DNA of 64,000 nucleotides from Candidatus Pyrohabitans jungbluthii (lineage in GTDB: Archaea > Hydrothermarchaeota > Hydrothermarchaeia > Hydrothermarchaeales > BMS3B), in the NCBI GenBank assembly GCA_002010065.2, contig MTMD02000014.1, positions 62,001 through 126,000 on the forward strand. Reading direction: 5' to 3'. Shown piece after piece: positions 21,507 through 38,843 of this stretch (positions are counted from its first letter, which is position 1; the number at the start of each line of letters is the position of its first letter). The position numbers were made by a program, and so were the translations under genes. The notes under the pieces were generated by a model that saw nothing but the letters and a program-made list of their open reading frames with translations, was not told the origin of the DNA and searched no databases.

Positions 21507-22121
21507 ATGAATGGAATAAAAGAGGAAAAACAAAAGCTGAGGGAATACGTCTGGAGGAGGCTTGAAGAAGCGGGAGTGGCGAGATTTCCTCCACCTTACG
21601 GAAGGATACCCAACTTTGAGGGGGCAGAAATAGCGGCGGAGAGGTTAAGCAAGTTGGAGGAGTGGAGAAGGGCAAAGGTGGTGCTCGCAAATCCCGACTC
21701 GCCTCAGAGGAAGGTGAGGGAGCTCGCCCTTAAACAGGGAAAGATGCTCATCATGGCATCCCCCAAGCTCAAGAGGGGATATCTTAAGATAGACCCTGCG
21801 GATGTGAAGGGAAGGGAGAGGGAGGCTTCCAGTATTAAGGGAGCCTTCAAATATGGCAGGACTATCAGCCTGGACGAGGTGGGGGGCATAGACTTGGTAA
21901 TCACTGGCTGTGTCGCTGCCACAGAGGGAGGCGTAAGGCTCGGCAAGGGTGGCGGCTACGGCGACAGGGAGATAGCAGCAGTGCGCGAAAGATTTGGGGA
22001 CGTAGCTGTGGCAACCACTCTGCACGAGCTTCAGATACTTGAGAGAATCCCTGAAGAAAAGCACGACCAGAGGGTTAGCATAATAGCAACGCCGCGCAGG
22101 GTGGTTAGAGTCCAGGAGTAG
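21507..22121 (+). CDS. 5-formyltetrahydrofolate cyclo-ligase-like protein
   Basis: Member of the 5-FTHF cyclo-ligase (methenyltetrahydrofolate synthetase) superfamily: RLGKGGGYGDRE is the nucleotide/folate-binding signature, and PDSPQRKVRELAL resembles the N-terminal basic region. In archaea using tetrahydromethanopterin the natural substrate is uncertain. The start is ambiguous: ATG 21507 gives a family-like N-terminus, while GTG 21477 and ATG 21483 are in frame upstream. It ends convergently, overlapping the ferredoxin gene on the other strand by 17 nt. Confidence 0.75.
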   Translation: MNGIKEEKQKLREYVWRRLEEAGVARFPPPYGRIPNFEGAEIAAERLSKLEEWRRAKVVLANPDSPQRKVRELALKQGKMLIMASPKLKRGYLKIDPADVKGREREASSIKGAFKYGRTISLDEVGGIDLVITGCVAATEGGVRLGKGGGYGDREIAAVRERFGDVAVATTLHELQILERIPEEKHDQRVSIIATPRRVVRVQE

Positions 22122-22773
22122 CGCCTCTGCCACGCCCTCCGGGGCACACATCGGTGCAAAGGGTGCACTTTCTGAAGCTTCCCCCACGCTCGAAGCGAAG
22201 GTTGTACTCGTAGCACCGCCTCGCATCGAAGGTTTCACCTATAGCGCTGGCTGGACATGCCTCTATGCAAGCGTTGCACTCCAGGCAGAGGTCGGGCACG
22301 CTCTGCTCAGAGCCTGAGAGTATGGCGCTCGTGGCTACGCCAGCGAACCTGGCGCGGGGGCCAAATTCTGGAGTTATCACAAGACCATTTCTGCCAATTG
22401 TGCCCACGCCGGCGATAGCTGCTAATCTGCGTATGTCAGCGCTCGGCTGCGAGGAGCTTATAACCTCACTCTCGTATCCCATTTTAAGCAGGAGGTTTGA
22501 AACCTTATAAGCTACGAGGTCGAGAATCTGGTCAACAAACTGCTTCGCTCTATTCCAGCCTTCCTGCCTGACGCCAACCAGAAGCTCCTTCTCCTTTATA
22601 CCCAGACCAAAAACAATTACGCTTCTCGCCCAGGGAAAACCTGTGAGGGGTGCTGCGTACGCTCCGCAGTAGCACCCGAAGATGTCCATTCCCTCTTCAA
22701 CGACGATAGCCTTAACCTCATCCTTCAGCGCCCAGAGGCGCGACTGAAGCAAAGCTCTAGACTCTGCTGCCAC
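22105..22773 (-). CDS. QueG-like double [4Fe-4S] ferredoxin-type reductase
   Basis: Short relative of epoxyqueuosine reductase. The C-terminus has two Fe-S motifs, CLECNACIEACP and CTLCTDVCP; the N-terminal domain includes GTIGRNGLVITPEFGPR, the conserved QueG segment. It lacks the HEAT repeats of full QueG, as do many archaeal paralogues of unknown role. GTG 22773 is chosen: it follows AAAGGAGAGG with correct spacing and begins right after the stop of the AhpD-like gene; the upstream ATG extension only overlaps that gene. Probably a redox protein co-transcribed with the AhpD-like gene. Confidence 0.8.
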   Translation of the reverse strand: MAAESRALLQSRLWALKDEVKAIVVEEGMDIFGCYCGAYAAPLTGFPWARSVIVFGLGIKEKELLVGVRQEGWNRAKQFVDQILDLVAYKVSNLLLKMGYESEVISSSQPSADIRRLAAIAGVGTIGRNGLVITPEFGPRARFAGVATSAILSGSEQSVPDLCLECNACIEACPASAIGETFDARRCYEYNLRFERGGSFRKCTLCTDVCPGGRGRGATPGL

Positions 22774-22774
22774 T

Positions 22775-23242
22775 CTACTTCCTCTCCTTTGCGCTTCCTT
22801 CAATCTCACACATTCCATAGTCGCAGGCGCACTCCTCTCCAGCGGCGCTCTCAACTTCCAGGAACTTTCTCAGCCCTACTGCGAGGGATGAAGTTTCTGC
22901 CACGTGGCTGGCGATGAGCACAGCATCGAGAACCTCCTCCTTGCTAGCGCCATTGGCGAGGGCACGCTTCATGTGGCTGAGAGCGCAGGCATCGCAGCGC
23001 AGGGCTACAGCAGAGGCTAAAGCGACTAGCTCCGCAACCTTTGGCTCAAGGGTGCTGCCTAATATGAGGTTCGAGCTTTTAATAAAATTCGGGATAAAAA
23101 TCTCAGGCTTGGTGCTCAAAACTCTGGAAACAAGGGGCACCTCGCCGTACCTCTCCTCTATCATGCTGAGTATCTCCTTCACCGTCGCTTCCTTGTCCTC
23201 AAAAAGTAAGCGCACCTTGGAATTGAGGTTGACATGAGCCAT
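22775..23242 (-). CDS. Carboxymuconolactone decarboxylase/AhpD-like protein
   Basis: AhpD-fold protein with the redox motif CDACALSH (CxxC and His three residues later), suggesting peroxidase-reductase or disulfide chemistry. A Cys-rich tail (EECACDYGMC) is unusual and may bind metal. ATG 23242 is preferred: a TATA box (minus-strand AAATATACC) is centred 25 nt upstream, predicting a leaderless transcript that begins at this codon; an upstream extension to 23293 would precede the transcript start. It forms a two-gene unit with the QueG-like reductase. Confidence 0.82.
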   Translation of the reverse strand: MAHVNLNSKVRLLFEDKEATVKEILSMIEERYGEVPLVSRVLSTKPEIFIPNFIKSSNLILGSTLEPKVAELVALASAVALRCDACALSHMKRALANGASKEEVLDAVLIASHVAETSSLAVGLRKFLEVESAAGEECACDYGMCEIEGSAKERK

Positions 23243-23762: not shown

Positions 23763-24779
23763 CTACCTGACTGCACCGATAAAGGCCTTTATGTTATCTA
23801 GGGGCACCGTGGGCGGGATATCGCAACCGGGGCAGAGCACGTATCCACCGCCCTCAGCGGCGGCGGAGATGCATTCCTGCGCTGCCTTCTTCACATCCTC
23901 GGGTGTGCCCTCGGTGAGCACAGCTACGGGGTTAACGTTGCCAGCGATGCATATTTTGCCGGATAACTCTCTCTTGGCTGTGGCAAGGTCAACCTTGTGG
24001 TCTAAGCTGAAGCAGCCTGCTTTGCTCTCTGCTATTTCATGGAGCTTGTCGCTGGTGTTGCCGCAGATGTGCAGGAATGTGCGCGCGCCCATCTTCTCAA
24101 TCTCTTGCACAAGCTCCTTGAGCGCTGGCAGAGCGTATTCCACAAACTGCTTCTTTGATATTAAATCACCGCTCGCCGTGGGGTCAGCGATGCTCACAGC
24201 CTCCATGCCCACGTCCCTTATAAGCGGCTCATAGAAGGCAAGGATAAGCTCCTTTGCGAAGTCAACCACCTGCTTGACAAACTCCTTGTTTTTGTAGGTG
24301 TCGCGCATCAGCCTCTCCACACCACGAAGGTTAGCTGCCTTTGTGAAGGGTCCCCACGCGGTAGTGCCCACGAGGTACTTATCGCCTATGCGCTCGTACA
24401 CAATCTCAGAGGCACGCCAGACTGTGCGTATCGCCTCGCTCTCGGAAATCTTCTCTACATCCAGCGCTTCTAGGTCTTCGGGCGAGTCTATTATTGGTGC
24501 TTCTAGGTCGGGTGCACCTACGCGGCGAACCTTTATCTTTCCTCCAATCGCCGCCGCCAGGAAGTTGTTGTAGCCGGAGCCAGGGAAGACCATATCCGAC
24601 TGGATTAACTCGGCGGTCTTTATTATGGTCTCCGCGTACTCCTCTGGCTTGCCTATAAAATCCATGAAGGTCTTTCCCGCATTCTTTATAGTCCACATCC
24701 CCCCGCCGTAAATTACGGCGGGCACCCTCTCGGGCGTGCCCAACTCAAAAGCTTCGAGAAGTATATCCTTCGGCTGCAT
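23763..24779 (-). CDS. MtaA/UroD-type cobamide methyltransferase
   Basis: Uroporphyrinogen decarboxylase-superfamily methyltransferase, 338 residues. Zinc ligands typical of MtaA/MtbA/CmuA are visible: HICG (H237, C239) and CPGC (C316/C319). The protein is more distant from the other two family members in this window. It could move a methyl group between a corrinoid protein and CoM or a methoxylated substrate; which one is not decidable. GAGGTGG precedes ATG 24779. A palindrome and TATA box lie in the divergent spacer. Downstream partner is the CBS protein. Confidence 0.85.
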   Translation of the reverse strand: MQPKDILLEAFELGTPERVPAVIYGGGMWTIKNAGKTFMDFIGKPEEYAETIIKTAELIQSDMVFPGSGYNNFLAAAIGGKIKVRRVGAPDLEAPIIDSPEDLEALDVEKISESEAIRTVWRASEIVYERIGDKYLVGTTAWGPFTKAANLRGVERLMRDTYKNKEFVKQVVDFAKELILAFYEPLIRDVGMEAVSIADPTASGDLISKKQFVEYALPALKELVQEIEKMGARTFLHICGNTSDKLHEIAESKAGCFSLDHKVDLATAKRELSGKICIAGNVNPVAVLTEGTPEDVKKAAQECISAAAEGGGYVLCPGCDIPPTVPLDNIKAFIGAVR

Positions 24780-24960: not shown

Positions 24961-25377
24961 ATGGCAAATGAGTGTGAGGAATATGTAAAGGAGAAGATGA
25001 AGATAGTACCCAGGTTTTTGAAGCCAATCTGCCAGGTGCACCCCGAGGCTGCGAAGCGCTTCGCAGACTTCTATGAAACGATTTTCGGCGATGGCGCGCT
25101 GGACAGGAAGACAAAAGAGCTTATTTTTACTGCGATAGGCGTTGCCACGGCTTCACCTCGCTGCATAGTCCACGTTATCCCTGCGATTGAGGCTGGGGCA
25201 ACAGACGAGGAGATTCTCGAGGCTGTGGCGGTGGGCTTCGTAGGTGCAGGATTCTATCCAAATAACCCCGGTATCCCCTACTGTTTCGAGTATGCCGCCA
25301 AGGTGCTCGAAATAGCGCAGAAGTACAGAAAGGGCGAGGACTGGGAGTACCTCAAGCCTCCAGAGTTCAGGGGCTAA
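24961..25377 (+). CDS. AhpD-like protein with altered active site
   Basis: Carboxymuconolactone decarboxylase-family protein, 138 residues, all-helical. Where the family has CxxCxxxH, this one reads SPRCIVHV, so the first cysteine is replaced by serine and the His is two residues closer than in its neighbour at 22775-23242. It therefore probably lacks disulfide reductase activity and may be a lyase/hydrolase-like or binding member. It is divergently transcribed from the UroD-type methyltransferase across a spacer with operator-like repeats, suggesting shared control. Confidence 0.8.
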   Translation: MANECEEYVKEKMKIVPRFLKPICQVHPEAAKRFADFYETIFGDGALDRKTKELIFTAIGVATASPRCIVHVIPAIEAGATDEEILEAVAVGFVGAGFYPNNPGIPYCFEYAAKVLEIAQKYRKGEDWEYLKPPEFRG

Positions 25378-25642: not shown

Positions 25643-26896
25643 CTAAAGAAAGCTTACCGCGTACTGGAGCACGTCGTTGCACTTAACGCCGCTCTTAAAC
25701 GCGCGCCATTCTTTGCCGTAGGGCTCTGGAAGGCGCCTCGCCACGTACATCGCATAGCACGCGGGACAGTTCATGAGCAGCGTCTCAGCACCAGTGCGCT
25801 CTGCATCGCGTAAAAAGAGCTTGCCTATCTCCAGGGCAACCTCCGGCCTTGCTCCGCGTATTCCCCCGCCAGCGCCGCAGCACTTTGTCAGCCTTCCGTG
25901 GCGCTCAAGCTCGACCAGCTCCACCCCGGGCAGGTGTTGTATTACTGTGCGAGGCTCCTCGTATATGCGGGGTCCGCGAAAGCCTCGTGTAAGCTGACAG
26001 GGGTCGTGGTAGGTAACCTTTTCTTTTCTTTCTTTTGTAAACTTGAGCCTGCCATCCTCAACAGCTTCGGCTATTATCTGGGTAATGTGGAGCACCTCAA
26101 AGGGAAGCTTCCCTGCATAGCCTCGCCACACTTCGCGAATCTGCTGAAGGCAGCATGGGCAGCTCACTGCAAGCGTGGCTATGCCCTTCTCCTCGAGCTT
26201 GGCGATATTGTTCTCCACCAGCTCTTCCTGAAGCTCCCACATGCCAGCGACGGCGAGGGGCCAGCCGCAGCACCAGGCTTGAGAAGCTTCCAGAAGTGTG
26301 AATTCTATGCCTGCCGCATTGAGCAGGCGAACCGCTGCCTCTGCCATCGCAGGCGCATCCCAGGCGACGCCACACCCCTCGAAGTAGCAGAGCTCTGCGC
26401 TCTCGGCCACCTTCACCTCTGGCGGTAGCCAGATTTTGTAGCGCAGCTCGAGAGGTGAGGGAAATATGCTGTGGTGCTTCCTTGCGTTTTCCAGCAGCTT
26501 GGGCAGCGTGCCTGGCGCGGAGTAGCCCATGCCCACAAGCTCTTTTCGCATAGCCCACCAGAGCTTCTGCGTGTCGATGCCCACCTCGCAGGTTTCGCCG
26601 CAGGCGCCGCAGGTGGTGCAGGCGTAGAGTGCGTCGAGGAAGCGGATAACCTCCTCCTCCGCAGGCTTTTTTGCTCCCAGAAGCTTCGCCCTTAAGCCGT
26701 GCACCGCCTCAATGAAGCCCTTATACTCGGCTATCTTCGCGGGCGGCGAGATGTCGCGATTCTGCGTTGTCTCCTGAACAACGCACGCGTCGAAGCAAGC
26801 GCCGCAGCGCACACACGCTTCAAGCTCCAGCATCTGCTTCCGGGTAAGCTGGGTGAGAAAATCTTTCTTAGGCAAAGCCCGTGCTTTCTCCAGCAT
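25643..26896 (-). CDS. HdrD-like Fe-S oxidoreductase (two 4Fe-4S, two CCG domains)
   Basis: Resembles the catalytic subunit of membrane heterodisulfide reductase and the related GlpC/LldE/DsrK/HmeD proteins. Two ferredoxin motifs, CVRCGACFDAC and CTTCGACGETC, are followed by two cysteine-rich CCG domains: CYFEGCG...WCCGW...CPCC, and HDPCQ...CCGAGGG...NCPAC. 417 residues is full length. Substrate not deducible: a heterodisulfide, a DsrC-like protein or a lactate-type donor are all possible. There is no cytochrome subunit adjacent, although an HdrE/NarI-like protein is encoded at 37778. A TATA box exactly 25 nt before the ATG implies a leaderless message. Confidence 0.87.
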   Translation of the reverse strand: MLEKARALPKKDFLTQLTRKQMLELEACVRCGACFDACVVQETTQNRDISPPAKIAEYKGFIEAVHGLRAKLLGAKKPAEEEVIRFLDALYACTTCGACGETCEVGIDTQKLWWAMRKELVGMGYSAPGTLPKLLENARKHHSIFPSPLELRYKIWLPPEVKVAESAELCYFEGCGVAWDAPAMAEAAVRLLNAAGIEFTLLEASQAWCCGWPLAVAGMWELQEELVENNIAKLEEKGIATLAVSCPCCLQQIREVWRGYAGKLPFEVLHITQIIAEAVEDGRLKFTKERKEKVTYHDPCQLTRGFRGPRIYEEPRTVIQHLPGVELVELERHGRLTKCCGAGGGIRGARPEVALEIGKLFLRDAERTGAETLLMNCPACYAMYVARRLPEPYGKEWRAFKSGVKCNDVLQYAVSFL

Positions 26897-27299: not shown

Positions 27300-27668
27300 T
27301 CACCCCAGTGAGATAACATTATTTGCCTCAAGTGCCAGGTCTATGAGCGTCGCCGCCCCAGAAACCTTCGCTTCGTCGATAAGGTCTTCCTCCTTGATTC
27401 CCTTCACCTTCATTGTCTGCTCGCACACCAGTATCTCTACGCCGGCTTCGATGGCTTCCTCTAGGCGCTGCTTTATCGTTGGTACGCCCGGCTTTGCCTC
27501 CTCTTTATCCAGGGCGCCCTTGACCATTATCTCAGCGCCCTCCTGAACGCAGAAGAGTATGGTCTCAACGTCCATTGCAGCGCTTATAGAAGCGAACATG
27601 AGCGTTGCGCGGGTAACGCCGGGTGAGTTGAAGCCCGTGGTTAAGACGAAGACCAGCTTGTCTCCCAT
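27300..27668 (-). CDS. DsrE/DsrF-like protein
   Basis: 122-residue DsrE-fold protein (Rossmann-like; VFVLTTGFNSPGVTRATLMF at the N-terminus). The conserved Cys sits in EILVCEQTMKVKGI, the position that carries sulfur in DsrE/TusD. ATG 27668 has AGGTGG upstream. Its pairing with TusA suggests a sulfur relay. Another conserved feature is the second Cys in ILFCVQEGAE. Confidence 0.85.
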   Translation of the reverse strand: MGDKLVFVLTTGFNSPGVTRATLMFASISAAMDVETILFCVQEGAEIMVKGALDKEEAKPGVPTIKQRLEEAIEAGVEILVCEQTMKVKGIKEEDLIDEAKVSGAATLIDLALEANNVISLG

Positions 27669-27700
27669 TGAAACCACCTGCAAAAAAGTAAAAAGGGGGT

Positions 27701-28234
27701 TTATACTGTGCGCCTGCTTTCCAGCGTTACCTCCACGTTGACAGGGTTGCGCAAGGTACTACCCACAGGCGAGGTTTTCACAACGTCTTCGTGAAGCTTC
27801 TGAAGCTCTTCCTTGCTCACAGGCGTCTTGGTCTTGAGGAACACCCTGGCGCGGACGTTGGTAAACCCTGGCCACACCTTCTCAGGCGGCTCAAGGGCAA
27901 GGAAGCCTGGAAGATCTATATCACCCTCAACTTCAACCTCAACCTTCGCAAGCTCTATTCCGCGAACAGCGGCGTTCATAACGTAGCCCACAATTAGGCA
28001 GGCGCCGAAGGCACCGAGAACGAACTCCACCATGTTGGGCGCAGTGTTTGTGCCTCCTAGGTCAAGGGGCTCGTCCATTCTTATGGTGAAGTCCCTTATT
28101 CTCACCTCTTCCTTGAAGCCTCCCTTCCACTTGGCGCTGGCGCGCCACAGAGTCTTTCCGAGCTCAGGGTTTGCCTTTACTGTCTCCACCACCTTCTGGA
28201 GGTACTCCACATCCAGGCCGTTCACAACTTTCAT
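27701..28234 (-). CDS. OsmC-family protein
   Basis: OsmC/Ohr-fold protein of 177 residues. The region GTNTAPNMVEFVLGAFGACLIVGY matches the central helix with one conserved cysteine; the second family Cys is not obvious, so classic peroxidase activity is uncertain. OsmC proteins next to TusA/DsrE proteins are common in anaerobes and may handle persulfides. ATG 28234 is preceded by GAGGTG; the upstream in-frame extension is hydrophobic intergenic sequence. Confidence 0.85.
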   Translation of the reverse strand: MKVVNGLDVEYLQKVVETVKANPELGKTLWRASAKWKGGFKEEVRIRDFTIRMDEPLDLGGTNTAPNMVEFVLGAFGACLIVGYVMNAAVRGIELAKVEVEVEGDIDLPGFLALEPPEKVWPGFTNVRARVFLKTKTPVSKEELQKLHEDVVKTSPVGSTLRNPVNVEVTLESRRTV

Positions 28235-28307
28235 TCTCAACACCTCAGGTAAAAATGCGCTAACCAGATATGATAAAAAAAGTGGCAGAAAAAGGGTCAA
28301 AACATGG

Positions 28308-29864
28308 TTAGAATATAAGCCGCTTTCCCTTCTCACTCACGCTGAGGAACTTGTTCCTCCCCGCTCTTTCCTCCACAAGCAAACCTTTGCCAAGCAGGAT
28401 TTTCACTCTCTTCCGTGCTGTGGTGCGGGTAACGCCCAGCTTCCTGGTTACGTCCTTGTACGAGGGCTTTACTCCTTTAAGGTTTTGCTCATGAACAAAG
28501 CTAAGAAGGGCGTAAAGTTCTTCGGTGAGCTCCGCCTCCCCTTTAACTCCAACAGCCCTGGTCTCCTTCTCCAATAGGTTTGCCTCCCTCTCATCCAGCG
28601 TCGCAGGATCCACGGAAATCAGGATCACCGCCCTGCTCAGGTATGCTAAGTCACGAAGCTTCTGAAGCAGAGCAAGCGCCGAGCGGAAGCCCCATAGGGT
28701 TATCAGGTAATCAAACCTATCTACCAAGACGACGCTTGTCCTTGTCACAAACTCCCGAATTCTGGTTTCTACAACCTCAGGCTCGGGCTTAATTGTGTCC
28801 TCTCCTTCGCCATACTCGCTGAGCCAGTAGCAGGCAACGCCTTCGCCAAAAATTCGCCTTGCCTCTGCCACTGGTAGCCTGGAAAGCACCATCCCCTTAA
28901 AGCCGCAGTTAATCATATCCCTGAGGATGCTCCTGCTCCTCTCATAGTTTTTCTCCTTCACAAGGTAGAGATTGCCCCTCTTTATGTCGTAGGAGAGCAT
29001 CCTCTCCATCAGCTTCTCCTGCTCCCTCTTCATATCGGTTATATCCACGAGCACATAGAGGGTGCCTCCCGCACCGCGAAGCGGAGAGGCGCTGACAAGC
29101 AGGTGCACCTCTTTCCCCGACTTTTTCTTGAAGTTTATCTCATACCTGTCCTGGGAGTGTCTCTCCAGCCCCGGAAGCACGAAATCGGCGCGCTTTCCAA
29201 CAACCTCATCCCTTTTGTAACCAGTAAGCCTTTCAAACACAGGATTAACAAAGGTTATAAAGCCCTCTGCATCCACTATCACAACGCCTTCTTCCATAGA
29301 TTGAATTATGTTCTCGTTGAACCTCTTGAGTTCCTCCATTTTTTTGAAGAGTCTTGAGTTTCTAATAGCTATAGCAGCATGACTGGCGAAAATCGTGAGC
29401 AGCTTTAAATCTTTGTCTGTAAAACCACCTCCACCAGCCTTGCCGAAGGCAGCAAGCCCGCCGATTATCTTTCCCTTAAAAACAAGCGGCACAACTATGG
29501 CTTCGTTTACATTCAGCTTTTTCACCAGCTCCCTGTTAATCCTGTTGTCGCTCCACAGCGAATTGGTTAGTATCGGCTTGCGATGCTTCACAACCCAGGC
29601 GCAAAGCCCGCCTTCGCTCATCGGCAGACTCATACCCTTCAGCAGATCTCTGTTCTTCCCCGCCGCCTCCTCGTAGGTTATGGTTGAGCGGTCCTCGCTG
29701 ATAACTGGAATTGCCACGGTCTCGGCATTGATGAGCATCCTCGCCTTCTCTGTTATAAGCCGGAAAACCTCCCGCGTATCCAACTCACTCAAAATAGCCA
29801 TGCACACTTCCTGAAGGGCGACAAGCTCGAGGTCACCCTCCACTCTATCAATCATCTGAATCAT
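28308..29864 (-). CDS. GAF-PAS-DUF835-winged-helix regulator
   Basis: One-component or kinase-less sensor regulator, 518 residues. Order: GAF domain (about 10-175, with MSEGGLCAWVVKHRKPI), PAS domain (about 185-300, FNENIIQSMEEGVVIVDAEGFI), DUF835 (about 310-440, YLVKEKNYERSRSILRDM) and a C-terminal winged helix (SYKDVTRKLGVTRTTARKR). There is no histidine-kinase domain. DUF835 proteins with GAF/PAS occur in methanogens and Archaeoglobi. Its ATG overlaps the stop of the UroD-type methyltransferase gene (ATGA), so it is made together with that enzyme and probably regulates methyltransferase genes in response to a small ligand or redox state. Confidence 0.88.
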   Translation of the reverse strand: MIQMIDRVEGDLELVALQEVCMAILSELDTREVFRLITEKARMLINAETVAIPVISEDRSTITYEEAAGKNRDLLKGMSLPMSEGGLCAWVVKHRKPILTNSLWSDNRINRELVKKLNVNEAIVVPLVFKGKIIGGLAAFGKAGGGGFTDKDLKLLTIFASHAAIAIRNSRLFKKMEELKRFNENIIQSMEEGVVIVDAEGFITFVNPVFERLTGYKRDEVVGKRADFVLPGLERHSQDRYEINFKKKSGKEVHLLVSASPLRGAGGTLYVLVDITDMKREQEKLMERMLSYDIKRGNLYLVKEKNYERSRSILRDMINCGFKGMVLSRLPVAEARRIFGEGVACYWLSEYGEGEDTIKPEPEVVETRIREFVTRTSVVLVDRFDYLITLWGFRSALALLQKLRDLAYLSRAVILISVDPATLDEREANLLEKETRAVGVKGEAELTEELYALLSFVHEQNLKGVKPSYKDVTRKLGVTRTTARKRVKILLGKGLLVEERAGRNKFLSVSEKGKRLIF

Positions 29865-30868
29865 GAGCCCAAACTCTTCACAGTCTCAACCATGGCGCGA
29901 AGGTTCCTATTTGGCGTTAGCGGCGAGATGGCGCACCCCGGGGCGATTATGTCTATACCCGCCTCTATAGCTCGCTTCGTCTCGGCAATCACCTCCTCGG
30001 GGGTGCCAAAGGCTAGGGCGTAGACAGTGTCGATGTTGCCCATAATAGACGCCTTACCTCTGGATACCTCCACAGCATGCCTGGCGTCGGTCTTGGAATC
30101 TATGCTCAGGCAGGTGGCGCCGGTTTCTATCATCTTATCTATAATCTTCGTGCCATCGCCGCAGATGTGGAGAATCGTCGGGCCTTTAATCTTTCGTATA
30201 AGCTCACGGTCGAAGGGCTGGGCAAAGTTAACATAACCCTTGACACCCATAATATCCACAGAGGCAAACATGTTCTCTATTACAATTGCATCCGCGCCGT
30301 GCTCCAGCATGGCGTTGGCATACTCTGCTATCGCCTCAAGGCCAAGGTTTGTGAACTCCTTGACAATCACCGGGTTCTTTATGGACATCTTCAGAATCTT
30401 CTCCATGTTCGCAAGGTGGGCTGCGAGGGAGAAGGGGCCTATTACGTGTCCCATTATTGGCACCTCATCTCCGTACTCCTCCTTGAGAATCTCTATCGCT
30501 TCCAGCACCACCGGAATCCTTCCCCGCTCCAGAAAGTTCTCCGGCACCTCAACACCCTCTGGTGTTGAATAGCCTTTGAAGGGCGCCTCTGGGATGTCTG
30601 TCTTTCTCTTGCCCCACTTCACCTCAAGCCCGAAAATCTCAGCTTCTACCGTCTGGCAAAATGGGACGCCTATGCCTTCCAGACCAACCTGCTCCCAGGC
30701 AGCGGCAGCTAGTTTTGCCATCTTGCGTGCGTCGCGGTAGGCGTCTGGGAAGTATATTCCCAGCTTGTCCATCTGTTCTATGGTTGCTGTCTGGTTTGGA
30801 GAAGTCACAGGCGGGCGGTCAACCTTTTTAAGATGCAGGGCCTTGAGGAATCTTTCCCTCGGTGTCAT
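29861..30868 (-). CDS. MtaA/MtoB-type cobamide methyltransferase
   Basis: UroD-superfamily methyltransferase, 335 residues, with zinc ligands HICG (H234, C236) and APGC (C312). It is closer to the plus-strand paralogue at 33121 (shared PENFLERGRIP-type segment) than to the one at 23763. It opens a two-gene unit with the GAF-PAS regulator. It may act on a different methyl donor but use the single corrinoid protein encoded at 34153. Start ATG 30868; a 12-nt gap separates it from the Lrp-type gene upstream. Confidence 0.87.
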   Translation of the reverse strand: MTPRERFLKALHLKKVDRPPVTSPNQTATIEQMDKLGIYFPDAYRDARKMAKLAAAAWEQVGLEGIGVPFCQTVEAEIFGLEVKWGKRKTDIPEAPFKGYSTPEGVEVPENFLERGRIPVVLEAIEILKEEYGDEVPIMGHVIGPFSLAAHLANMEKILKMSIKNPVIVKEFTNLGLEAIAEYANAMLEHGADAIVIENMFASVDIMGVKGYVNFAQPFDRELIRKIKGPTILHICGDGTKIIDKMIETGATCLSIDSKTDARHAVEVSRGKASIMGNIDTVYALAFGTPEEVIAETKRAIEAGIDIIAPGCAISPLTPNRNLRAMVETVKSLGS

Positions 30869-30880: not shown

Positions 30881-31378
30881 CTACTCGCAGAACAGTTTCT
30901 TAAGAACATCATCACTGTAGTTCACAAGCAGCCTTTTCTCCTCCTTAATAGTGGAAGCCACGAAGTGGGTGCCTGTCTTAACCACCCCGTCTATGGCGTG
31001 CATCTCGCGGAGGATTCTCTTCAAATCTTCCCTGTCTTTAGCTTTGGCAATGACGATGAAGTCAAAGTCGCCAAGCACATAATAAACAGTAAAAACGCCT
31101 GAGATGGAAGCGAGTTTCTCCCCTATCTCCTCTGCAGTGGTGTTCTCATAACTGACGTTCACAAAGGTGACGGCGGTCATGTCCAGACCCAAAACCTGGG
31201 GGTCAAGCTCAACAAAGGTGCCCTTAATAAGTCCCATCTTCTCAAACTTCTTCAGCCTGTAGTGCACCGTCGAGCGGCTTATGCTTGTGCGCTTTGATAT
31301 CTCATCGAGGTTGCAGCTTCCATCCTCGTCGATGCATCTGAGTATTTTAATATCCTTCTCTTCAAGCTTTACGGACAT
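30881..31378 (-). CDS. Lrp/AsnC-family transcriptional regulator
   Basis: 165 residues: N-terminal helix-turn-helix (DLDEISKRTSISRSTVHYRLKK-type) and a C-terminal RAM/AsnC domain (AVTFVNVSYENTTAEEIG...). Such archaeal feast/famine regulators bind amino acids or other small effectors and often autoregulate. It is expressed ahead of the UroD-type methyltransferase and the GAF-PAS gene in one direction, so it is a good candidate regulator of the methyl-transfer genes on both strands. Confidence 0.93.
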   Translation of the reverse strand: MSVKLEEKDIKILRCIDEDGSCNLDEISKRTSISRSTVHYRLKKFEKMGLIKGTFVELDPQVLGLDMTAVTFVNVSYENTTAEEIGEKLASISGVFTVYYVLGDFDFIVIAKAKDREDLKRILREMHAIDGVVKTGTHFVASTIKEEKRLLVNYSDDVLKKLFCE

Positions 31379-31623: not shown

Positions 31624-31678
31624 GATATACAATACTGATTTCAGATATATATACTTTATCCAAATAAGTAGCGAAATA

Positions 31679-31688
31679 TTTAAATATA
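31679..31688 (+). promoter_or_regulatory. TATA box of FrhB/ferredoxin gene
   Basis: TTTAAATATA at 31679-31688, about 27 nt before ATG 31711, so the message should be leaderless or nearly so. Confidence 0.55.
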
Positions 31689-31710
31689 ATCCAAACAATA
31701 TGGGTACGTG

Positions 31711-33021
31711 ATGAAAAGACGCCTGCTCACACTGATAGGCGGTATAGGTGTAGACGAAGACAGATGCATAGGGTGCGGAAACTGCGAGGCTGTGTGCCCA
31801 GGCAACTATGAACTCCTCTGCAGGGGTATAGAGGGGAGAGGCACTCTTGTGGTGAGGAATGGTGTCGCGAGTTTTGTCTCAGCCGAGTGCTGCCGCAGGG
31901 ACATACCCGAGAGCGCCTGCAGGCAGTGCTACGACGCCTGCCCAATGCGTGCGGTAATTTATCCTGATAGTGAGGGATTCCAGAGACTGGAAGCTGAGAT
32001 TATAAACGCTGGAAAATGCACCGGCTGCGGTGCATGCGCTGCTGTCTGCCCGGATAAAATTATAGAGATAAATGAATATCCTATACTCAGAGGCGAGTGC
32101 ATAAACTGCGGCTTTTGCCTAGTTCACTGCCCATCAATGCGGAGAGCGTCCACCAAGGGAGAGATCTCGCTCATAGACGAACCTCTTGGGGAGTACAGGA
32201 AGCTGGTGGCTGCAAGGGCTAGTGCAGCAAGAATCGCCAGCGTAGCTCAGGATGGCGGAATTGTTACTGCGCTTCTCACCTATGCGCTGAGGAAGGGCAT
32301 AATAGATGCTGCAGTAGTTGCGGTGAATAGTTCGCAGCCCTGGAAGCCTGTGCCACTGATAGCCTCAACTGAGGAGGAGATAATCGCTGGGGCAGGAACC
32401 AAATATACAAACTCTCCAACACTTGCGGCACTGAAAAAGGCCCGTGAAAGTGGTTTTAAAAAGCTCGGGATTGTGACGCTTCCCTGCCAGAGCAGAGCAC
32501 TTCAACGACTTGAAACTTCAGAACTTGGTAGGGAGCTTATGGACATTGTTGCCCTTAACATAAGCCTCTTCTGCAAGGCTAACCTCCACTACGCCGGGAT
32601 ACTTGAACTCTCACAAAAGTATGGATTCTCCCTCAATGAAGTGAAGAAGTTTGCAATCAAGGGCAAAAGTCTCTACGTGACAACGCCAGCTGGGGTTGTG
32701 GATATCCCACTTAAAGAAGCTCTGAGGTACTGCAGACCCGCATGCAAGTGCTGCGCTGACTTTACGTCGGTGCATGCGGATATCTCAGTTGGCGCGGTGG
32801 GCTCACCCAAAGAGTTCTCCACGGTAATTATCAGAACCAGGAAAGCTGAGGAAATATTTGAAAACATGGTAAAAGAGGGTATAATTGAGGTTAAAGAGGT
32901 TAATGATAAGGGTTTCAGCCTTTTGATGAAGCTTGCGGCTCAGAAAAGCAAAAATACTCAAAATCTCAGTGAGCCTGGAAAGGTGGTTGCAATGATGCGA
33001 GCAGGTGGTGGTGGCCATTAG
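31711..33021 (+). CDS. Polyferredoxin-FrhB-type oxidoreductase
   Basis: N-terminal half carries four cysteine sets: CIGCGNCEAVC, CRQCYDAC, CTGCGACAAVC and CINCGFCLVHC. The C-terminal half matches the FrhB/FdhB domain (ASVAQDGGIVTALLTYAL; VTLPCQSRAL; LFCKANL), which binds FAD and reacts with F420. Some relatives reduce other partners. It is transcribed toward the methyl-transfer operon, 100 nt upstream, and could deliver low-potential electrons to the corrinoid activator; that link is inference. ATG 31711 is used; GTG 31708 is one codon earlier. Confidence 0.85.
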   Translation: MKRRLLTLIGGIGVDEDRCIGCGNCEAVCPGNYELLCRGIEGRGTLVVRNGVASFVSAECCRRDIPESACRQCYDACPMRAVIYPDSEGFQRLEAEIINAGKCTGCGACAAVCPDKIIEINEYPILRGECINCGFCLVHCPSMRRASTKGEISLIDEPLGEYRKLVAARASAARIASVAQDGGIVTALLTYALRKGIIDAAVVAVNSSQPWKPVPLIASTEEEIIAGAGTKYTNSPTLAALKKARESGFKKLGIVTLPCQSRALQRLETSELGRELMDIVALNISLFCKANLHYAGILELSQKYGFSLNEVKKFAIKGKSLYVTTPAGVVDIPLKEALRYCRPACKCCADFTSVHADISVGAVGSPKEFSTVIIRTRKAEEIFENMVKEGIIEVKEVNDKGFSLLMKLAAQKSKNTQNLSEPGKVVAMMRAGGGGH

Positions 33022-33079
33022 GAAAAAATCTAAGTATTTCTGTGAATTATTGAAAATTGTATTGCTTACCAAAGAAAAA

Positions 33080-33089
33080 TTTAAATATT
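33080..33089 (+). promoter_or_regulatory. TATA box of the methyl-transfer operon
   Basis: TTTAAATATT at 33080-33089; start of transcription expected near 33110. ATCAGGTATATGAT at 33092-33105 just downstream has symmetrical ends and could be an operator. Confidence 0.5.
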
Positions 33090-33120
33090 GTATCAGGTAT
33101 ATGATAAGTGGGGTAGCAAC

Positions 33121-34140
33121 ATGACGCCGAAAGAGAGAGTGATGAACACACTGGAAAAGAAGGAAGTTGACCGCGTGCCAGTGTTCAGCGGAATGGGCAA
33201 CGTCACCGTGGCTGGGATGCAGAAGTACGGCATCGACTTTGCCTCGTCGCATGCGAATGCTGAGCAGATGGCAACGCTCGCGTGCTCTACCTACGAGCTT
33301 TTTGGATTTGAGTGTGCTGTCGTACCCTTCGACCTGTGCGTGGAAGCAGAGGCGCTGGGCTGCGAAGTGAACTTCTACGCTGGCAAGCAGAACATACTCT
33401 ATCCTACAATAAAGTCGAAGATTCTCAAGGTAGGTGAGGAGCTTCAGGTGCCTGAGAACCTGCTTGAGCGGGGCAGGATACCTCTGGTAAAGGAGGCAAT
33501 CTCGCTTTGCAAGGAGAAGCTCAACGGCGAGGTGGCGGTTGGAAGCTATATTCTCGGGCCATTTACACTTGCGGGGCAGATCCTCGACCTGAACGACCTC
33601 CTCAAGAGTTCATTTAAAAAGCCGAATGATGTCAAAGCTCTGCTGAGCCAGCTGGTTGAGCCGCTGGTTGATATAGCCAATGCATTCCACGAGGCTGGCG
33701 CTGACTATATAACAGTGCGCGAGATGGGAGCACCCAGCGACGTTATCTCGCCGCGCATGTTCAAGATGCTGGTGCAGCCATATCTCAAGGAAACCATCGC
33801 CGGCATAAAGGCGCCGACTATTCTGCACATGTGCGGCGACACCAACATGCTGGTGGAGATGCTCTATGAGTGCGGTGCAAATGCGATAAGCGTGGAGCAG
33901 AAGAACGACGTCGCTGCTACACGCCAGAAGCTTGGCGAGGAGGCGGTGATTCTGGGCAATCTGGATGCATATGGTGTCATAGTTAAGGGCACACCTGAGG
34001 AGGTGGAGCAGTCGGTTAAGCAGGCGATCGAAGCGGGCGTCGACGGTGTAATGCCAGGATGCGACATCTGGCCCGAGGTGCCCGAGGATAACATGCATGC
34101 GCTCATAAAAGCTGTGGAAAAATACGGCGCAAAAAGCTGA
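33121..34140 (+). CDS. UroD-type methyltransferase, MtoB-like (methyltransferase I candidate)
   Basis: First gene of a four-gene methyl-transfer set. 339 residues; zinc ligands H236/C238 (HMCGD) and C314 (PGCD). In the archaeal Mto system a UroD-family enzyme (MtoB) takes the methyl group from a methoxylated aromatic and passes it to the corrinoid protein; the same fold in MtaA/MtbA moves methyl to CoM. The neighbours (corrinoid protein, activator, MtrH homologue) favour the first role. ATG 33121 (MTPKERV) is used; the upstream frame from 33088 starts within the promoter. Confidence 0.85.
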   Translation: MTPKERVMNTLEKKEVDRVPVFSGMGNVTVAGMQKYGIDFASSHANAEQMATLACSTYELFGFECAVVPFDLCVEAEALGCEVNFYAGKQNILYPTIKSKILKVGEELQVPENLLERGRIPLVKEAISLCKEKLNGEVAVGSYILGPFTLAGQILDLNDLLKSSFKKPNDVKALLSQLVEPLVDIANAFHEAGADYITVREMGAPSDVISPRMFKMLVQPYLKETIAGIKAPTILHMCGDTNMLVEMLYECGANAISVEQKNDVAATRQKLGEEAVILGNLDAYGVIVKGTPEEVEQSVKQAIEAGVDGVMPGCDIWPEVPEDNMHALIKAVEKYGAKS

Positions 34141-34152
34141 GAGGTGAGGAAG

Positions 34153-34830
34153 ATGACCGAGGACAAGAAGCAGCTTCTGGAAGAGATAAGGAAGGCAGTT
34201 ATAGAATTCGACGAAGACCGCGTGAAGGAGCTTGCCAACAAGTGGATTGAGCTGGGCTATGATGCCAACGAGGCAATTTTTGAGGGCTTGGCCGCGGGCA
34301 TGGAGGTTGTGGGCGATCTATTCGCAAAGAACGAGTACTTCGTGCCCGAGGTGCTCATGTGCGCCGATGCGCTCTACGCAGGCCTCGACATTCTGCGCCC
34401 CCACATAAAGGCGGAGGATAAGACGGAAACTAAAGGCGTGGTGGTAATAGGCACCGTGGAGGGCGACGTGCACGACATAGGTAAGAACCTGGTGAAGCTC
34501 ATGTTCGAGGTTGCAGGCTTTGAGGTGCACGACCTCGGCAAAGACGTACCCCTGGAGAAGTTCGTTGAGGAGCAGCTAAAGACAGACGCAGACCTCGTGT
34601 GCCTCTCAGCGATGATGACTACCACAATGCCAGGGATGAAGAAAGTTATTGAGATGCTTCGCGAGCGCAACCCGAATGTTAAGATCATGATTGGCGGTGC
34701 CCCAGTGTCGGAGAAGACAGTGGAGATGTACGGTGCCGACGCCACGGGCAAGGACGCTGCAAGCGCCCTTGAAGAGGCTATAAAGATGGTTGCCTCGCTT
34801 AGAGAGATGAAGAGGAAGAAGGAGATCTGA
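34153..34830 (+). CDS. Corrinoid methyl-carrier protein (MtoC/MtaC-like)
   Basis: B12-binding methyl carrier, 225 residues. Helical cap domain (about 1-90), then a Rossmann domain with the base-off cobalamin motif GDVHDIG (H107 as lower ligand), SAMMTTTM and GGAPV. It shuttles the methyl group on Co(I)/Co(III) between the UroD-type enzyme and the MtrH-like enzyme. GAGGTGAGG precedes ATG 34153. It is the only corrinoid carrier in the window, so the other two UroD-type enzymes may share it. Confidence 0.93.
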   Translation: MTEDKKQLLEEIRKAVIEFDEDRVKELANKWIELGYDANEAIFEGLAAGMEVVGDLFAKNEYFVPEVLMCADALYAGLDILRPHIKAEDKTETKGVVVIGTVEGDVHDIGKNLVKLMFEVAGFEVHDLGKDVPLEKFVEEQLKTDADLVCLSAMMTTTMPGMKKVIEMLRERNPNVKIMIGGAPVSEKTVEMYGADATGKDAASALEEAIKMVASLREMKRKKEI

Positions 34831-34839
34831 GGTGCTGTG

Positions 34840-36777
34840 ATGAAGTACAAGGTGATCTTCCAGCCCTCGGGGCGCAGAGGGGAAATAGAGGAGGGCAAGA
34901 CCCTCCGTGAGGCTGCGATTGAGCTGGGTGTGGGCATAGAGCAGGTGTGCGGCGGCAACAAGGTTTGCGGAAAGTGCAAGGTTCAGATTCAGGAAGGCTA
35001 CTTTGCAAAGTTCGATGTCCACTCCAGCATGAACAACCTCTCGCCCATAGGCAAGGAAGAGCTCAGGCTTCTTAATGAAGAGGAGGTTAAGAACAACTAT
35101 CGCCTAGCCTGTGCTGCCCGCGTGCAGGGCGATGTGCTTGTGTTTGTGCCTGAGGAGAGCCGTGTTGGCGGGCAGATTGTGAGGAAGGCAGCGGGCGAGA
35201 TAAACATTGAGCTCGACCCTGCAGTGCGGAAGTACTACGTCGAGCTACCTCCTCCCACCCTGGAGGACCCTGAGGGAGACTATGAGCGCCTGATGCGCGC
35301 CCTCAAGGAGCAGCACGGTCTCGAGGGCTTGAGCATGGACTACCATGCTCTTAGGGCTCTGCCGTTGGCGCTGAGAGAGGGCAAGTGGAAGGTCACCGTA
35401 ACAGTGTGGAACGATCGAGAGATAATAGGCGTGGAGCCGGGCTATAACGACCGCACCCTGGGCATAGCCTTCGACGTGGGAACGACGACGGTGGTGGGCT
35501 ACCTCACCGACATTAACACCGGCAAGGTTATCGCCATAGACTCCATGATGAATCCGCAGGTAAGCTTCGGCGAAGACGTGATGGCGCGCATCACCTATGC
35601 TATGGAGCACGAAGATGGGCTGCAGAAGATGCATGAGGCAATCATCGGAGGGATAAACAAGATCATCTCAAACCTGTGCAATAAGGCTCAAGTTGGAGTG
35701 GAGGAAATTTCAGAGATAGTGCTCGTGGGCAACACTGCAATGCACCACATATACCTGAACATCTACCCGGAGTACCTCGGCGTATCACCCTTTACGCCCG
35801 CGGTGCACCGCAGCCTAGACATAAAGGCGAGGGACCTCAACATCAAGGCGGCGCCCGGCGCTAATGTGCACGTCCTGCCAATAGAGGCAGGCTTCGTAGG
35901 CGCCGACAACATGGGTGTGGTTGTAGCCCTTGAGCCCGAGAAGAAGGACGACATCTGGCTCATCATAGACATAGGCACCAACGGCGAGATAGTGCTGGGC
36001 AACAAGGACAAACTGCTCTCGACTAGCTGCGCTACAGGTCCAGCGTTTGAGGGTGCGCAGATTACGCACGGCATGAGAGCAGCGCCCGGAGCGATAGAGC
36101 GCGTGCGCATTGACCCGGAGACAAAGGAGCCCCGCTACAAGGTCATAGGCAAGGAAGAGTGGAGCGACGAAGTTAAGAGCGAGGCTCGCGGAATATGCGG
36201 CTCGGGTATAATAGAAGTAGTGGCAGAGATGTTCAAGGCTGGCATTATAAAGAACAGCGGCGTCTTCAATACCAAGCTCGACACCCCGCGTATACGCAAA
36301 GGCGAAAACGGCCAGCCAGAGTATGTGCTCGCCTGGGCGGATGAGACTGCGATAGGCAAGGACATAACCGTTACCCAGAGCGACGTGCGCGCGGTTCAGT
36401 TAGCGAAGGGCGCACTGTACACCGGCTGCAAGATTCTCATGAAGCGCTATGGCATAGATGCTGTGGACAAGGTGATTCTCGCTGGAGCCTTCGGAAGCTA
36501 CATAGATAAAGAAGCCAGCATGGTCATAGGCATGTTCCCGGACTGCGATCTGGACAAGGTTGTAGCCGTGGGCAACGCCGCCGGCGATGGCGCGCGTATA
36601 GCGCTGCTCAACCGTAGGAAGCGCGAGGAGGCTAACGCCGTAGCGAGGCGCATAAAGTACATTGAGCTTACAGTGGACCCCGACTTCCAGACGGAGTTCA
36701 TGCAGGCGATGTACTTCCCACACATGAAGGACAAGTTCCCCCACATCCAGCACATCCTTGATAAGATACCCAAGTAG
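34840..36777 (+). CDS. ASKHA-type corrinoid activation protein (RACo/MtoD-like)
   Basis: ATP-dependent reductive activator that returns oxidised Co(II) corrinoid to Co(I). The N-terminal [2Fe-2S] ferredoxin domain has C37, C43, C46 and C91 (CGGNKVCGKC...C). The ASKHA ATPase core follows, with GIAFDVGTTTV, DIGTNGEIV, GNTAMHH and LAGAFGSYID. This is the bacterial-acetogen RACo/MtoD layout; methanogen RamA instead carries C-terminal 4Fe-4S clusters. 645 residues, intact. ATG 34840 follows GAGGTG; it sits 9 nt after the corrinoid gene and one base-step before the MtrH-like gene. Confidence 0.93.
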   Translation: MKYKVIFQPSGRRGEIEEGKTLREAAIELGVGIEQVCGGNKVCGKCKVQIQEGYFAKFDVHSSMNNLSPIGKEELRLLNEEEVKNNYRLACAARVQGDVLVFVPEESRVGGQIVRKAAGEINIELDPAVRKYYVELPPPTLEDPEGDYERLMRALKEQHGLEGLSMDYHALRALPLALREGKWKVTVTVWNDREIIGVEPGYNDRTLGIAFDVGTTTVVGYLTDINTGKVIAIDSMMNPQVSFGEDVMARITYAMEHEDGLQKMHEAIIGGINKIISNLCNKAQVGVEEISEIVLVGNTAMHHIYLNIYPEYLGVSPFTPAVHRSLDIKARDLNIKAAPGANVHVLPIEAGFVGADNMGVVVALEPEKKDDIWLIIDIGTNGEIVLGNKDKLLSTSCATGPAFEGAQITHGMRAAPGAIERVRIDPETKEPRYKVIGKEEWSDEVKSEARGICGSGIIEVVAEMFKAGIIKNSGVFNTKLDTPRIRKGENGQPEYVLAWADETAIGKDITVTQSDVRAVQLAKGALYTGCKILMKRYGIDAVDKVILAGAFGSYIDKEASMVIGMFPDCDLDKVVAVGNAAGDGARIALLNRRKREEANAVARRIKYIELTVDPDFQTEFMQAMYFPHMKDKFPHIQHILDKIPK

Positions 36778-36786
36778 GTGAGTAAA

Positions 36787-37770
36787 GTGTTCAGCCTGAA
36801 TAATAAGAATCAGAAGGTCGTGAAGATAGGGAATGTGAAGTTCGGCGGGCGCCCTGGGGAGAATCCCACAGTGCTCATCGGCACAATGTTCTACAACGGT
36901 CACAAAATCCTCGGCTCCCGCAAAAAGGGCGAGTTCGACAAGAAGCGAGCTGAAGAGCTAATAAACCGCCAGGAGGAGCTGAGCGACGCCACAGGCGTGC
37001 CCTGCATGCTTGACATAGTTGCCACATTTGGCGAAGAGGCAAAGCGCTACATCGACTTCGTGGCAGAGGTTACAGACATGCCCTTCTCCACAGATATATG
37101 GACAGAGCAGCCCAAGGTGGAGGCGGCGCAGTACATCGCTGAGGTAGGGCTTCAGGATCGCCACCTGTACAACAGCCTTGCACCATGGGCGAAAGACCCA
37201 GAGTATGAGGTAAACGAGCTGAGCAAGCTTGGTTTGAAGAATGTTCTGCTCGTTGCCTTCAACATGCAGAACCCCACGCCCCAGGGCAGGGTGGAGCTTG
37301 TCAAGGATGTTCTGCTCCCGCGGGCAGAGAAAGCTGGATTCAAGAATATCCTGGTAGACACATCGCTTATGAGTATCCCCTCCTCTCCCTTCTCCTTTTT
37401 GGGAAGCAGGCTGGTCAAGGAGGAGCTGGGCTTTCCAGTGGGCTGCGCTCCCTCGAACGGCACAGACTTGGTTAAGAAGGACGCAGAGGCTAAGTGGGGC
37501 AAGCTCGGCTTCGTGGGCATAGACAGCGCTGCCCATGCGCTGGGCGCAGTCTTCTGGAGCGACTTCCTGCTCTATGGCCCAATAGAGAGCGCCCCATGGA
37601 TATTCCCAGCCATAGCCAACGCCAATGCGATGCTGGCAACCTTCGTCTACGACGAAATCGGCGAGCTTCCAGCGAGCGAGAACCATCCGATATACAAGTT
37701 CTACCAAGACTTCGTGAATGAGCTCAAAGCTGGCAAGGCTTCGCTCAAGGAAATGGAGGCGGAAGGATAG
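36787..37770 (+). CDS. MtrH-family methyltransferase (MtoA-like, methyltransferase II)
   Basis: Homologue of the H subunit of tetrahydromethanopterin S-methyltransferase, a TIM-barrel enzyme that moves methyl between corrinoid and tetrahydromethanopterin. Features: VKFGGRPGENPTVLIGTMFY at the N-terminus, VPCMLDIVATFGE and GCAPSNGTDL. No other Mtr subunits are present, so this is the stand-alone form found in methoxydotrophic and related systems. Start: AGGTGA at 36776-36781 suits GTG 36787; GTG 36778 right after the stop is the alternative. Last soluble enzyme of the operon. Confidence 0.9.
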   Translation: MFSLNNKNQKVVKIGNVKFGGRPGENPTVLIGTMFYNGHKILGSRKKGEFDKKRAEELINRQEELSDATGVPCMLDIVATFGEEAKRYIDFVAEVTDMPFSTDIWTEQPKVEAAQYIAEVGLQDRHLYNSLAPWAKDPEYEVNELSKLGLKNVLLVAFNMQNPTPQGRVELVKDVLLPRAEKAGFKNILVDTSLMSIPSSPFSFLGSRLVKEELGFPVGCAPSNGTDLVKKDAEAKWGKLGFVGIDSAAHALGAVFWSDFLLYGPIESAPWIFPAIANANAMLATFVYDEIGELPASENHPIYKFYQDFVNELKAGKASLKEMEAEG

Positions 37771-37777
37771 CTTAGCC

Positions 37778-38527
37778 ATGGAGTACATGGTGATTCCCCC
37801 TGCCCTGAAAACACATTTTTATTTTATTGCCCTTATTTTGTCTTTTGTTTTTTTGACGGGGGTTGGCTTCAAGATAATGCTTATATCCAGCACTCGAGAC
37901 ACAACTGGCAGGCTCTCTATCTTTAGGATCGCTTGGATGAGCCTCACTTCCCTTTTCTCCCCAGAATGCCTTCTCGCCAGGCGGGTTTTTCCAAGGAGCT
38001 GGCTTCGCGGCGCAATGCTCGTGCTCATAATATGGAGCTTTCTGCTAATCATAGCCGGCGGTGTGCTGAGCTATTCTTCTCGCTTGGTCGGGGTCCCGCT
38101 CCGCTCCACCTATCACCTCCTCAGCCTTTCCGTTGACACCGCCGGCTTTCTTCTTCTATTAGGCGTGCTCTACGCCATCGCAAGGCGATATTTGCTCGCA
38201 AGGGAAGAAGTGTTCACCATGCCAGAGGACGGCGTCTTCCTCGGCTTATTTCTTCTTATCCTGCTCTCCGGCTTTGCTGTTGAAGGTGCGAGGCTGGCGA
38301 TAACATCTGCCAGCGACGCGTACTCGCCTTTTGGAAGCCTCGTGGCGGAGCTGCTCTCCCCAGCAACCTTAGAAATGCAGGGGAAGGTATTCGTCTACGC
38401 CAAGCTTTTGCACTTCACCGCAGCCTTTGCCCTTCTCGCATATATCCCCTTCTCAAAGGCGATGCACATGTTTGCAGCGCAAATCACCACACGCTTTGCA
38501 AAAGAAAAAGAGAGGCTGTATTATTAA
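37778..38527 (+). CDS. HdrE/NarI-like membrane cytochrome subunit
   Basis: 249-residue membrane protein with about five transmembrane helices, resembling the b-type cytochrome subunit of membrane Hdr, Dsr/Hme or nitrate reductase complexes (SGFAVEGARLAI and LHFTAAFALLAYIPFSKAMHM are typical). Two His near the last helix are present; the usual His in the second helix region appears replaced (RGAMLVLIIW), so heme content is uncertain. It follows the MtrH-like gene by 7 nt and would pair with an HdrD-like protein. A link from methyl oxidation to menaquinone is plausible but inferred. Confidence 0.75.
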   Translation: MEYMVIPPALKTHFYFIALILSFVFLTGVGFKIMLISSTRDTTGRLSIFRIAWMSLTSLFSPECLLARRVFPRSWLRGAMLVLIIWSFLLIIAGGVLSYSSRLVGVPLRSTYHLLSLSVDTAGFLLLLGVLYAIARRYLLAREEVFTMPEDGVFLGLFLLILLSGFAVEGARLAITSASDAYSPFGSLVAELLSPATLEMQGKVFVYAKLLHFTAAFALLAYIPFSKAMHMFAAQITTRFAKEKERLYY

Positions 38528-38842
38528 TCACCTCTCAAACTCCATCCTCACCGCCTTGGGCGTCGCTGCACCAGTTTCAATCTCCACGGCGCGAATAACT
38601 GCCGCCGGTACAGGGCAGCCGGGATGTAGCCTCGCACGAGTAGCCGCCTGGTAAATTGCCGAGTCGCACATGCCGACGAGAACTTCCTTCGTCCAGTCGA
38701 GGCTCTTAACATCCTCTGCAAACGTTTTAACCTTCTCGCACCCCGAGGTTATGCGTATCTCCACTCTCTTTCCGTGCCTCTCAACGCTTATGCGGGTTAC
38801 AAACTTACAGGAACCGGCGTCTACCTCTGCTCGCGTCGTCAT
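38528..38842 (-). CDS. Small conserved Cys-containing protein (104 aa)
   Basis: Soluble beta/alpha protein with scattered cysteines (GSCKF, SGCEKV, GMCDSA, HPGCPVP). The arrangement resembles small uncharacterised methanogen proteins (possibly DUF6951), but I am not certain. It abuts the convergent cytochrome gene with no gap and starts 1 nt after the CobW-type GTPase, so it is co-transcribed with that gene. A metal-related function would fit the neighbour; unproven. Confidence 0.65.
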   Translation of the reverse strand: MTTRAEVDAGSCKFVTRISVERHGKRVEIRITSGCEKVKTFAEDVKSLDWTKEVLVGMCDSAIYQAATRARLHPGCPVPAAVIRAVEIETGAATPKAVRMEFER

Positions 38843-38843
38843 C

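Follow-up and report, generated by a model that had tools for sequence, protein, structure and literature searches.

An MtrH-containing corrinoid methyltransferase operon of a hot-seafloor archaeon that is distinct from the Mto system

Comparison with described methyltransferase systems

Several described systems share components with the locus studied here. In Mto, known from Methermicoccus shengliensis and Archaeoglobus fulgidus (AF_0006-0010), a UroD-superfamily first methyltransferase (MT1) is combined with a corrinoid protein, a RACo activator with a 2Fe-2S cluster and an MtrH-type second methyltransferase (MT2), and the methyl group passes to tetrahydromethanopterin (H4MPT). The mec cassette of Candidatus Formimonas warabiya DCMF also encodes an MtrH-like MTII, alongside its corrinoid protein and three UroD proteins. 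The soluble MtaA and MtbA proteins are coenzyme-M methyltransferases, which transfer the methyl group of a methylcorrinoid to a thiol. Type 1 mlp gene clusters (MGCs) occur in anaerobes of both domains and encode several MtaA-like UroD proteins with a His-Cys-Cys (H-C-C) zinc site, a corrinoid protein and a RACE activator; one of their Mlp proteins methylates selenide, and as described they include no pterin methyltransferase (PMC10418091).

The window that we analysed, i.e. the whole stretch of 64,000 nucleotides whose numbering is used below, has a set of four such genes on its plus strand (33121-37770). A first-pass annotation had proposed these four components and assigned them to Mto. All four were confirmed by domain profiles, and a fifth gene follows them:

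33080..33087, plus strand: TTTAAATA, possible archaeal TATA box ahead of the operon (sequence match only)
33121..34140, plus strand: UroD1, MtaA/CmuA-family methyltransferase and predicted MT1, 339 aa (Pfam/NCBIfam, alignments, tree, AlphaFold)
34144..34830, plus strand: Corr, corrinoid (B12-binding) protein with a DVHDIG motif (Pfam/NCBIfam, motif)
34837..36777, plus strand: RACo/AcsV-type corrinoid reductive activase with an N-terminal 2Fe-2S cluster (Pfam/NCBIfam, motif)
36778..37770, plus strand: MtrH-family methylcorrinoid:H4MPT methyltransferase, predicted MT2 (Pfam/NCBIfam, genome search, tree)
37778..38527, plus strand: HdrE/NarI-like cytochrome b membrane subunit, final gene of the operon (PF02665, spacing, orthologs)

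UroD1 starts with the ATG at 33121 and has a URO-D domain (PF01208, 258.6 bits). Corr has B12-binding and B12-binding_2 domains, and its DVHDIG sequence is an intact D-x-H-x-x-G motif. The Fer2, linker, middle and C-terminal domains of RACo (353 bits) and its intact C-x5-C-x2-C motif bear out the N-terminal 2Fe-2S cluster that had been predicted for the activator. The MtrH-type MT2 (domain score 228 bits) stands alongside the corrinoid protein, as MtoA does in Mto. Given that the gaps within the four-gene set are 0-6 bp, a single transcription unit is likely. This operon extends past the four genes to the HdrE-like gene, whose ATG at 37778 lies 7 bp past the mtrH stop (the listed ORF begins upstream, at 37718). 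Its orthologs, seen in at least 12 loci, start 3 bp behind mtrH.

The set of components is that of Mto, but the lineage is a different one. Our Mto reference was the mto operon of a genome taken as A. fulgidus (locus L191), which matches the mto gene order reported for that organism (PMC8359953). UroD1, Corr, RACo and MtrH are respectively 26, 42, 41 and 38% identical to MtoB, MtoC, MtoD and MtoA, with the value for UroD1 spanning 231 residues. The corresponding values are 57, 68, 62 and 46% for the same operon in Nitrospirota, and 56, 67, 58 and 59% for the operon in a genome taken as Ferroglobus placidus. On the MtaA/CmuA family model TIGR01463 (cut-off 235.4 bits), UroD1 scores 278.9 bits and MtoB 34. 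The zinc-ligand columns hold His, Cys and Cys in UroD1, as against Leu, Glu and Val in MtoB, and a clade of UroD1 with MtoB is rejected by the AU test (p=1.3e-5). In the MtrH tree, the operon's MtrH belongs to a 28-row clade (SH-aLRT 100) apart from MtoA. These results, together with the identities, speak against the Mto label, and an assignment to Mto by synteny alone is rejected.

The MT1 of Mto comes from another UroD branch and has 417 aa, compared with the 339 aa of UroD1. The sizes of bacterial O-demethylases vary, so protein size is no argument against Mto. The accessory genes also differ: the A. fulgidus mto cluster includes MFS transporters (PMC8359953), and no counterpart of these was found among the genes conserved around the operon. 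When a set of UroD, corrinoid protein, RACo and MtrH genes is encountered, the UroD branch and the zinc ligands should be checked before methoxydotrophy is read from it; here, this check corrects a likely mis-annotation.

Searches of open-access papers, which extended to Thermodesulfovibrio MtrH and to methyl transfer in Nitrospirota and Hydrothermarchaeota, gave neither a name nor a description of such a system. The parts are of known kinds. Their combination, namely a separate UroD1 clade, MtrH, three UroD proteins and a conserved accessory set, is not described in the literature covered.

The conserved locus, its distribution and the methyl route

The operon lies inside a conserved locus of ~17.6 kb (22105-39719), which has two further UroD enzymes as well as DUF6951, CMD, OsmC, DsrE, HdrD/HdrE-like and CobW proteins:

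22105..22854, minus strand: QueG-like protein with eight invariant Cys and two 4Fe-4S clusters, in at least 46 related loci
23763..24779, minus strand: UroD3, the third protein of the MtaA/CmuA type, in a clade of its own and with an H-C-C zinc site (profile, tree, alignment)
24961..25377, plus strand: CMD (carboxymuconolactone decarboxylase)-family protein, in at least 50 related loci
25643..26896, minus strand: HdrD-like protein with 4Fe-4S and CCG domains (two of each), in which the CC and CxxC cysteines are conserved
27300..27683, minus strand: DsrE-family protein; six homologs share one invariant Cys (the Pfam match is that of the Ferroglobus homolog)
27701..28336, minus strand: OsmC-family protein, in at least 19 loci
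28308..29864, minus strand: GAF-PAS-DUF835 regulator, 4-bp overlap with UroD2
29861..30868, minus strand: UroD2, the second methyltransferase of the MtaA/CmuA family; divergent, with an H-C-C zinc site (profile, tree, alignment)
30881..31378, minus strand: Lrp/AsnC-family regulator, kept with UroD2, 82% in Ferroglobus
31708..33021, plus strand: FrhB-type F420 oxidoreductase, several fused 4Fe-4S clusters, upstream of the operon
38528..38842, minus strand: DUF6951 protein, invariant C12/C35/H73/C76
38844..39719, minus strand: CobW/G3E-type GTPase, recurrent near the operon

UroD3 and the CMD, QueG-like, DUF6951, HdrD-like, CobW, OsmC, HdrE-like and DsrE genes are neighbours common to the window and related loci. 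Because the HdrD and CobW families are large, unrelated copies may account for some of their matches. Bacterial operons, too, have DsrE and OsmC homologs beside them, an NMT1-type ABC importer joins the locus in Archaeoglobi and some bacteria, and FolD joins it in one Nitrospirota case. The OsmC and CMD members do not have the usual redox cysteine pairs, a point against the methyl-sulfur reading proposed below. The QueG-like protein is a candidate electron donor to RACo. The FrhB-type gene adjoins the operon in its own genus only; an FrhB homolog is also found ahead of MtrH in another locus (L134:8805-9869). The four invariant residues of the DUF6951 protein are conserved across archaea and bacteria, and they probably form a metal site. 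Elsewhere in the window, the minus strand carries a type I restriction-modification island (9181-19784) with HsdR, HsdS and HsdM, in which HEPN and Schlafen/AlbA_2 genes lie between the subunits.

All four genes of the set occur together in at least 60 other loci, according to a scan of named genomes and of relatives; MtrH served as the query, which biases the count, and the figures are lower bounds. Given this recurrence, the arrangement is not due to chance. The loci belong to Nitrospirota (at least 35), Bacillota (at least 8), Archaeoglobi-like organisms (at least 4) and the order or genus of the window itself (at least 5), and others occur in Thermodesulfobacteriota, Chloroflexota, Armatimonadota, Actinomycetota and further groups. 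An orthologous UroD1 was not found in several close relatives, one of them of the same genus and 82% complete, and this patchy presence suggests an accessory rather than a housekeeping function. In the MtrH tree, the bacterial proteins form one clade amid archaeal sequences. This placement suggests that bacteria acquired the protein from archaea and switched to a different pterin, although the rooting is uncertain.

The assembly has 1.99 Mb and is rated 99.95% complete; the named relatives closest to it are Candidatus Pyrohabitans sp. JdFR-17 (MtrH 96%) and further Hydrothermarchaeota. The search for mcr and mtr that the first-pass annotation had recommended gave no match to McrA or MtrA in this 99.95% complete genome, and the only MtrH is that of the operon. 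CODH/ACS is present, with CdhC occurring twice. These findings agree with the route from methyl group to corrinoid to H4MPT that had been expected for the operon, and the chain from MT1 via the corrinoid protein and MtrH to the pterin is well supported as the safest part of the mechanism. A genome-wide search with PF06253 yielded no MttB-type MT1. With McrA, MtrA and MttB missing from the genome, methanogenic (coenzyme-M-directed) and trimethylamine-type uses were rejected. In Hydrothermarchaeota, mtrH without mcr has been reported along with the Wood-Ljungdahl pathway (Carr et al., PMC6775978). No canonical Mer exceeds the cut-off in the genome (best 138 versus 349 bits), so the oxidative branch of the pathway is not fully confirmed. 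Two divergent Mer-like genes of the luciferase family are present in the genome (C11:23107-24844), and the methylene-H4MPT reductase may be unusual.

UroD1 and its candidate substrate

The first-pass annotation had allowed for the UroD-type gene being a coenzyme-M-directed MtaA. Kinship with MtaA is evident in a tree of 87 proteins, in which the UroD1 clade (100/100) is sister (98/97) to a group of MtaA, MtbA, UroD2 and some MGC-like proteins. However, UroD1 lies beside this group, so the firm placement within MtaA that the first-pass annotation had named as a refutation is, taken literally, not what the tree shows; UroD1 also falls short of both equivalog cut-offs (MtaA, NF040654: 286.3 versus 400 bits, with M. 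zhilinae MtaA at 543; MtbA, NF041608: 202 versus 600). MtoB is placed elsewhere in the tree, UroD3 forms its own clade, and UroD1 is outside the MGC-like UroD proteins of DCMF and Acetoanaerobium, which are stand-ins for the published Mlp1-3. An AlphaFold model of UroD1 (pLDDT 92.6) has M. mazei MtaA as its best PDB match (TM 0.94). UroD1 shares its fold and zinc ligands with MtaA and MtbA, members of its nearest characterised sister group, but its genome is without Mcr and its operon also has bacterial carriers.

The zinc ligands H236, C238 and C314 are invariant in 34 UroD1 sequences, and the alignment shows an H-C-C site in UroD1, UroD2 and UroD3 alike. Such a site has been linked to transfer of S- or Se-methyl groups, and carboxylates take the place of Cys in O-methyl enzymes (Kountz and Balskus, PMC10418091). 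CmuA (chloromethane) and MecE (dichloromethane) also have H-C-C at the same columns, so the zinc site does not prove a sulfur substrate. UroD1 has, in addition, an invariant signature (R200-E201-M202-G203 and C314-D315-x-W317) that is found in none of the other UroD proteins compared; the coenzyme-M methyltransferases have other residues in place of Arg200, Asp315 and Trp317. The substrate may therefore be distinctive, and the pocket may accept something unusual.

With moderate confidence, we propose that the operon demethylates a methylated sulfur compound, for which methanethiol, thioethers and related methyl-S compounds are the candidates, and that the methyl group ends up on H4MPT, or on tetrahydrofolate in the bacterial versions; both the substrate and the direction are inferred. 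The zinc enzyme UroD1 would methylate the corrinoid protein in its Co(I) state, MtrH would pass the methyl group on to the pterin, and RACo would restore corrinoid that has become oxidised to Co(II). The resulting methyl-H4MPT would enter the Wood-Ljungdahl pathway or CODH/ACS. UroD2 and UroD3 could be paralogs that serve different substrates or acceptors, and the HdrD/HdrE-like, DsrE and OsmC proteins may handle the leftover thiol. A sulfur substrate is suggested by the H-C-C site in all three UroD proteins, by the position of UroD1 as sister to a group that holds thiol methyltransferases and its structural match to MtaA, and by thiol-type neighbours (the HdrD-like protein with its conserved CCG cysteines, DsrE and OsmC). 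Selenophosphate synthetase (SelD) does not exceed its cut-off in the genome (best 88.8 versus 125 bits), which favours sulfur over selenium.

The same steps might run in reverse for biosynthesis or detoxification, with methyl-H4MPT delivering its methyl group through MtrH, the corrinoid protein and UroD1 to a thiol. Such a direction would match that of the coenzyme-M methyltransferases, the transfers are reversible in principle, and the operon is closed by an HdrE-like membrane gene. Nevertheless, we consider it unlikely, because the patchy spread among close relatives, the locus's own regulators and the NMT1-type importer of Archaeoglobi and bacteria better fit uptake and catabolism, and coenzyme M is not expected in the bacterial carriers.

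It is less probable still that UroD1 is, like MtoB, an O-demethylase of methoxylated aromatics, through convergence rather than shared descent. F. placidus, which has an ortholog cluster, is an aromatic degrader, and the four component types, including the MtrH-type MT2 and the 2Fe-2S activator, are those of Mto. On the other hand, MtoB is in a different part of the superfamily and is without H-C-C, all four proteins of the window are nearer to bacterial non-Mto operons than to Mto, and the MFS transporters are missing from the conserved neighbours.

We regard a Cmu- or Mec-like halomethane demethylase, acting on chloromethane or dichloromethane, as similarly improbable. The H-C-C columns are those of CmuA and MecE, the mec cassette of DCMF (L201) likewise combines three UroD proteins with a corrinoid protein and an MtrH-like MTII (MecF, 30% identical), and DCMF itself carries an ortholog of the operon. 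However, identities to the mec proteins are 27-36% (27.5% for MecE), and UroD1 groups with none of MecE, MecC and CmuA in the tree. The DCMF ortholog (L081:6216-13419) has genes for a UroD2-like protein, RACo, MtrH, UroD1 and a corrinoid protein. It is not the mec cassette, given that it lies at 2.70 Mb and mec at 1.27 Mb. Finally, methyl-selenium scavenging is very improbable, because despite the resemblance of three Mlp-like UroD proteins, a corrinoid protein and RACo to type 1 MGCs, these clusters are described without a pterin methyltransferase (PMC10418091), whereas the operon has MtrH and its genome is without a SelD above the cut-off.

A hot-seafloor archaeon thus shares with many anaerobic bacteria a B12-dependent set that probably takes methyl groups from a sulfur-type compound and, in the archaeon, feeds them into the main carbon pathway. 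A broader idea, which we put forward tentatively, is that non-methanogenic archaea and anaerobic bacteria possess a common, hitherto unnamed pathway in which the methyl group of a methylated sulfur compound passes straight to the pterin (Wood-Ljungdahl) pool; the ~17.6-kb locus would be dedicated to it and would combine three UroD enzymes with a thiol-oxidising HdrDE-like branch to the membrane. To our knowledge, genes for the use of methanethiol or dimethylsulfide in sulfate- or metal-reducing anaerobes outside the methanogens are not established. The compact operon is conserved not only in hydrothermal archaea but also in Ferroglobus placidus and Desulfofundulus, and it is a direct candidate for methyl-S use in cultured organisms.

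We also observed further pairs of UroD and corrinoid genes in Hydrothermarchaeota (L045:2004-3831 and L054:8784-10479), one of which is in the window's own genome. These additional pairs point to several methyl substrates.
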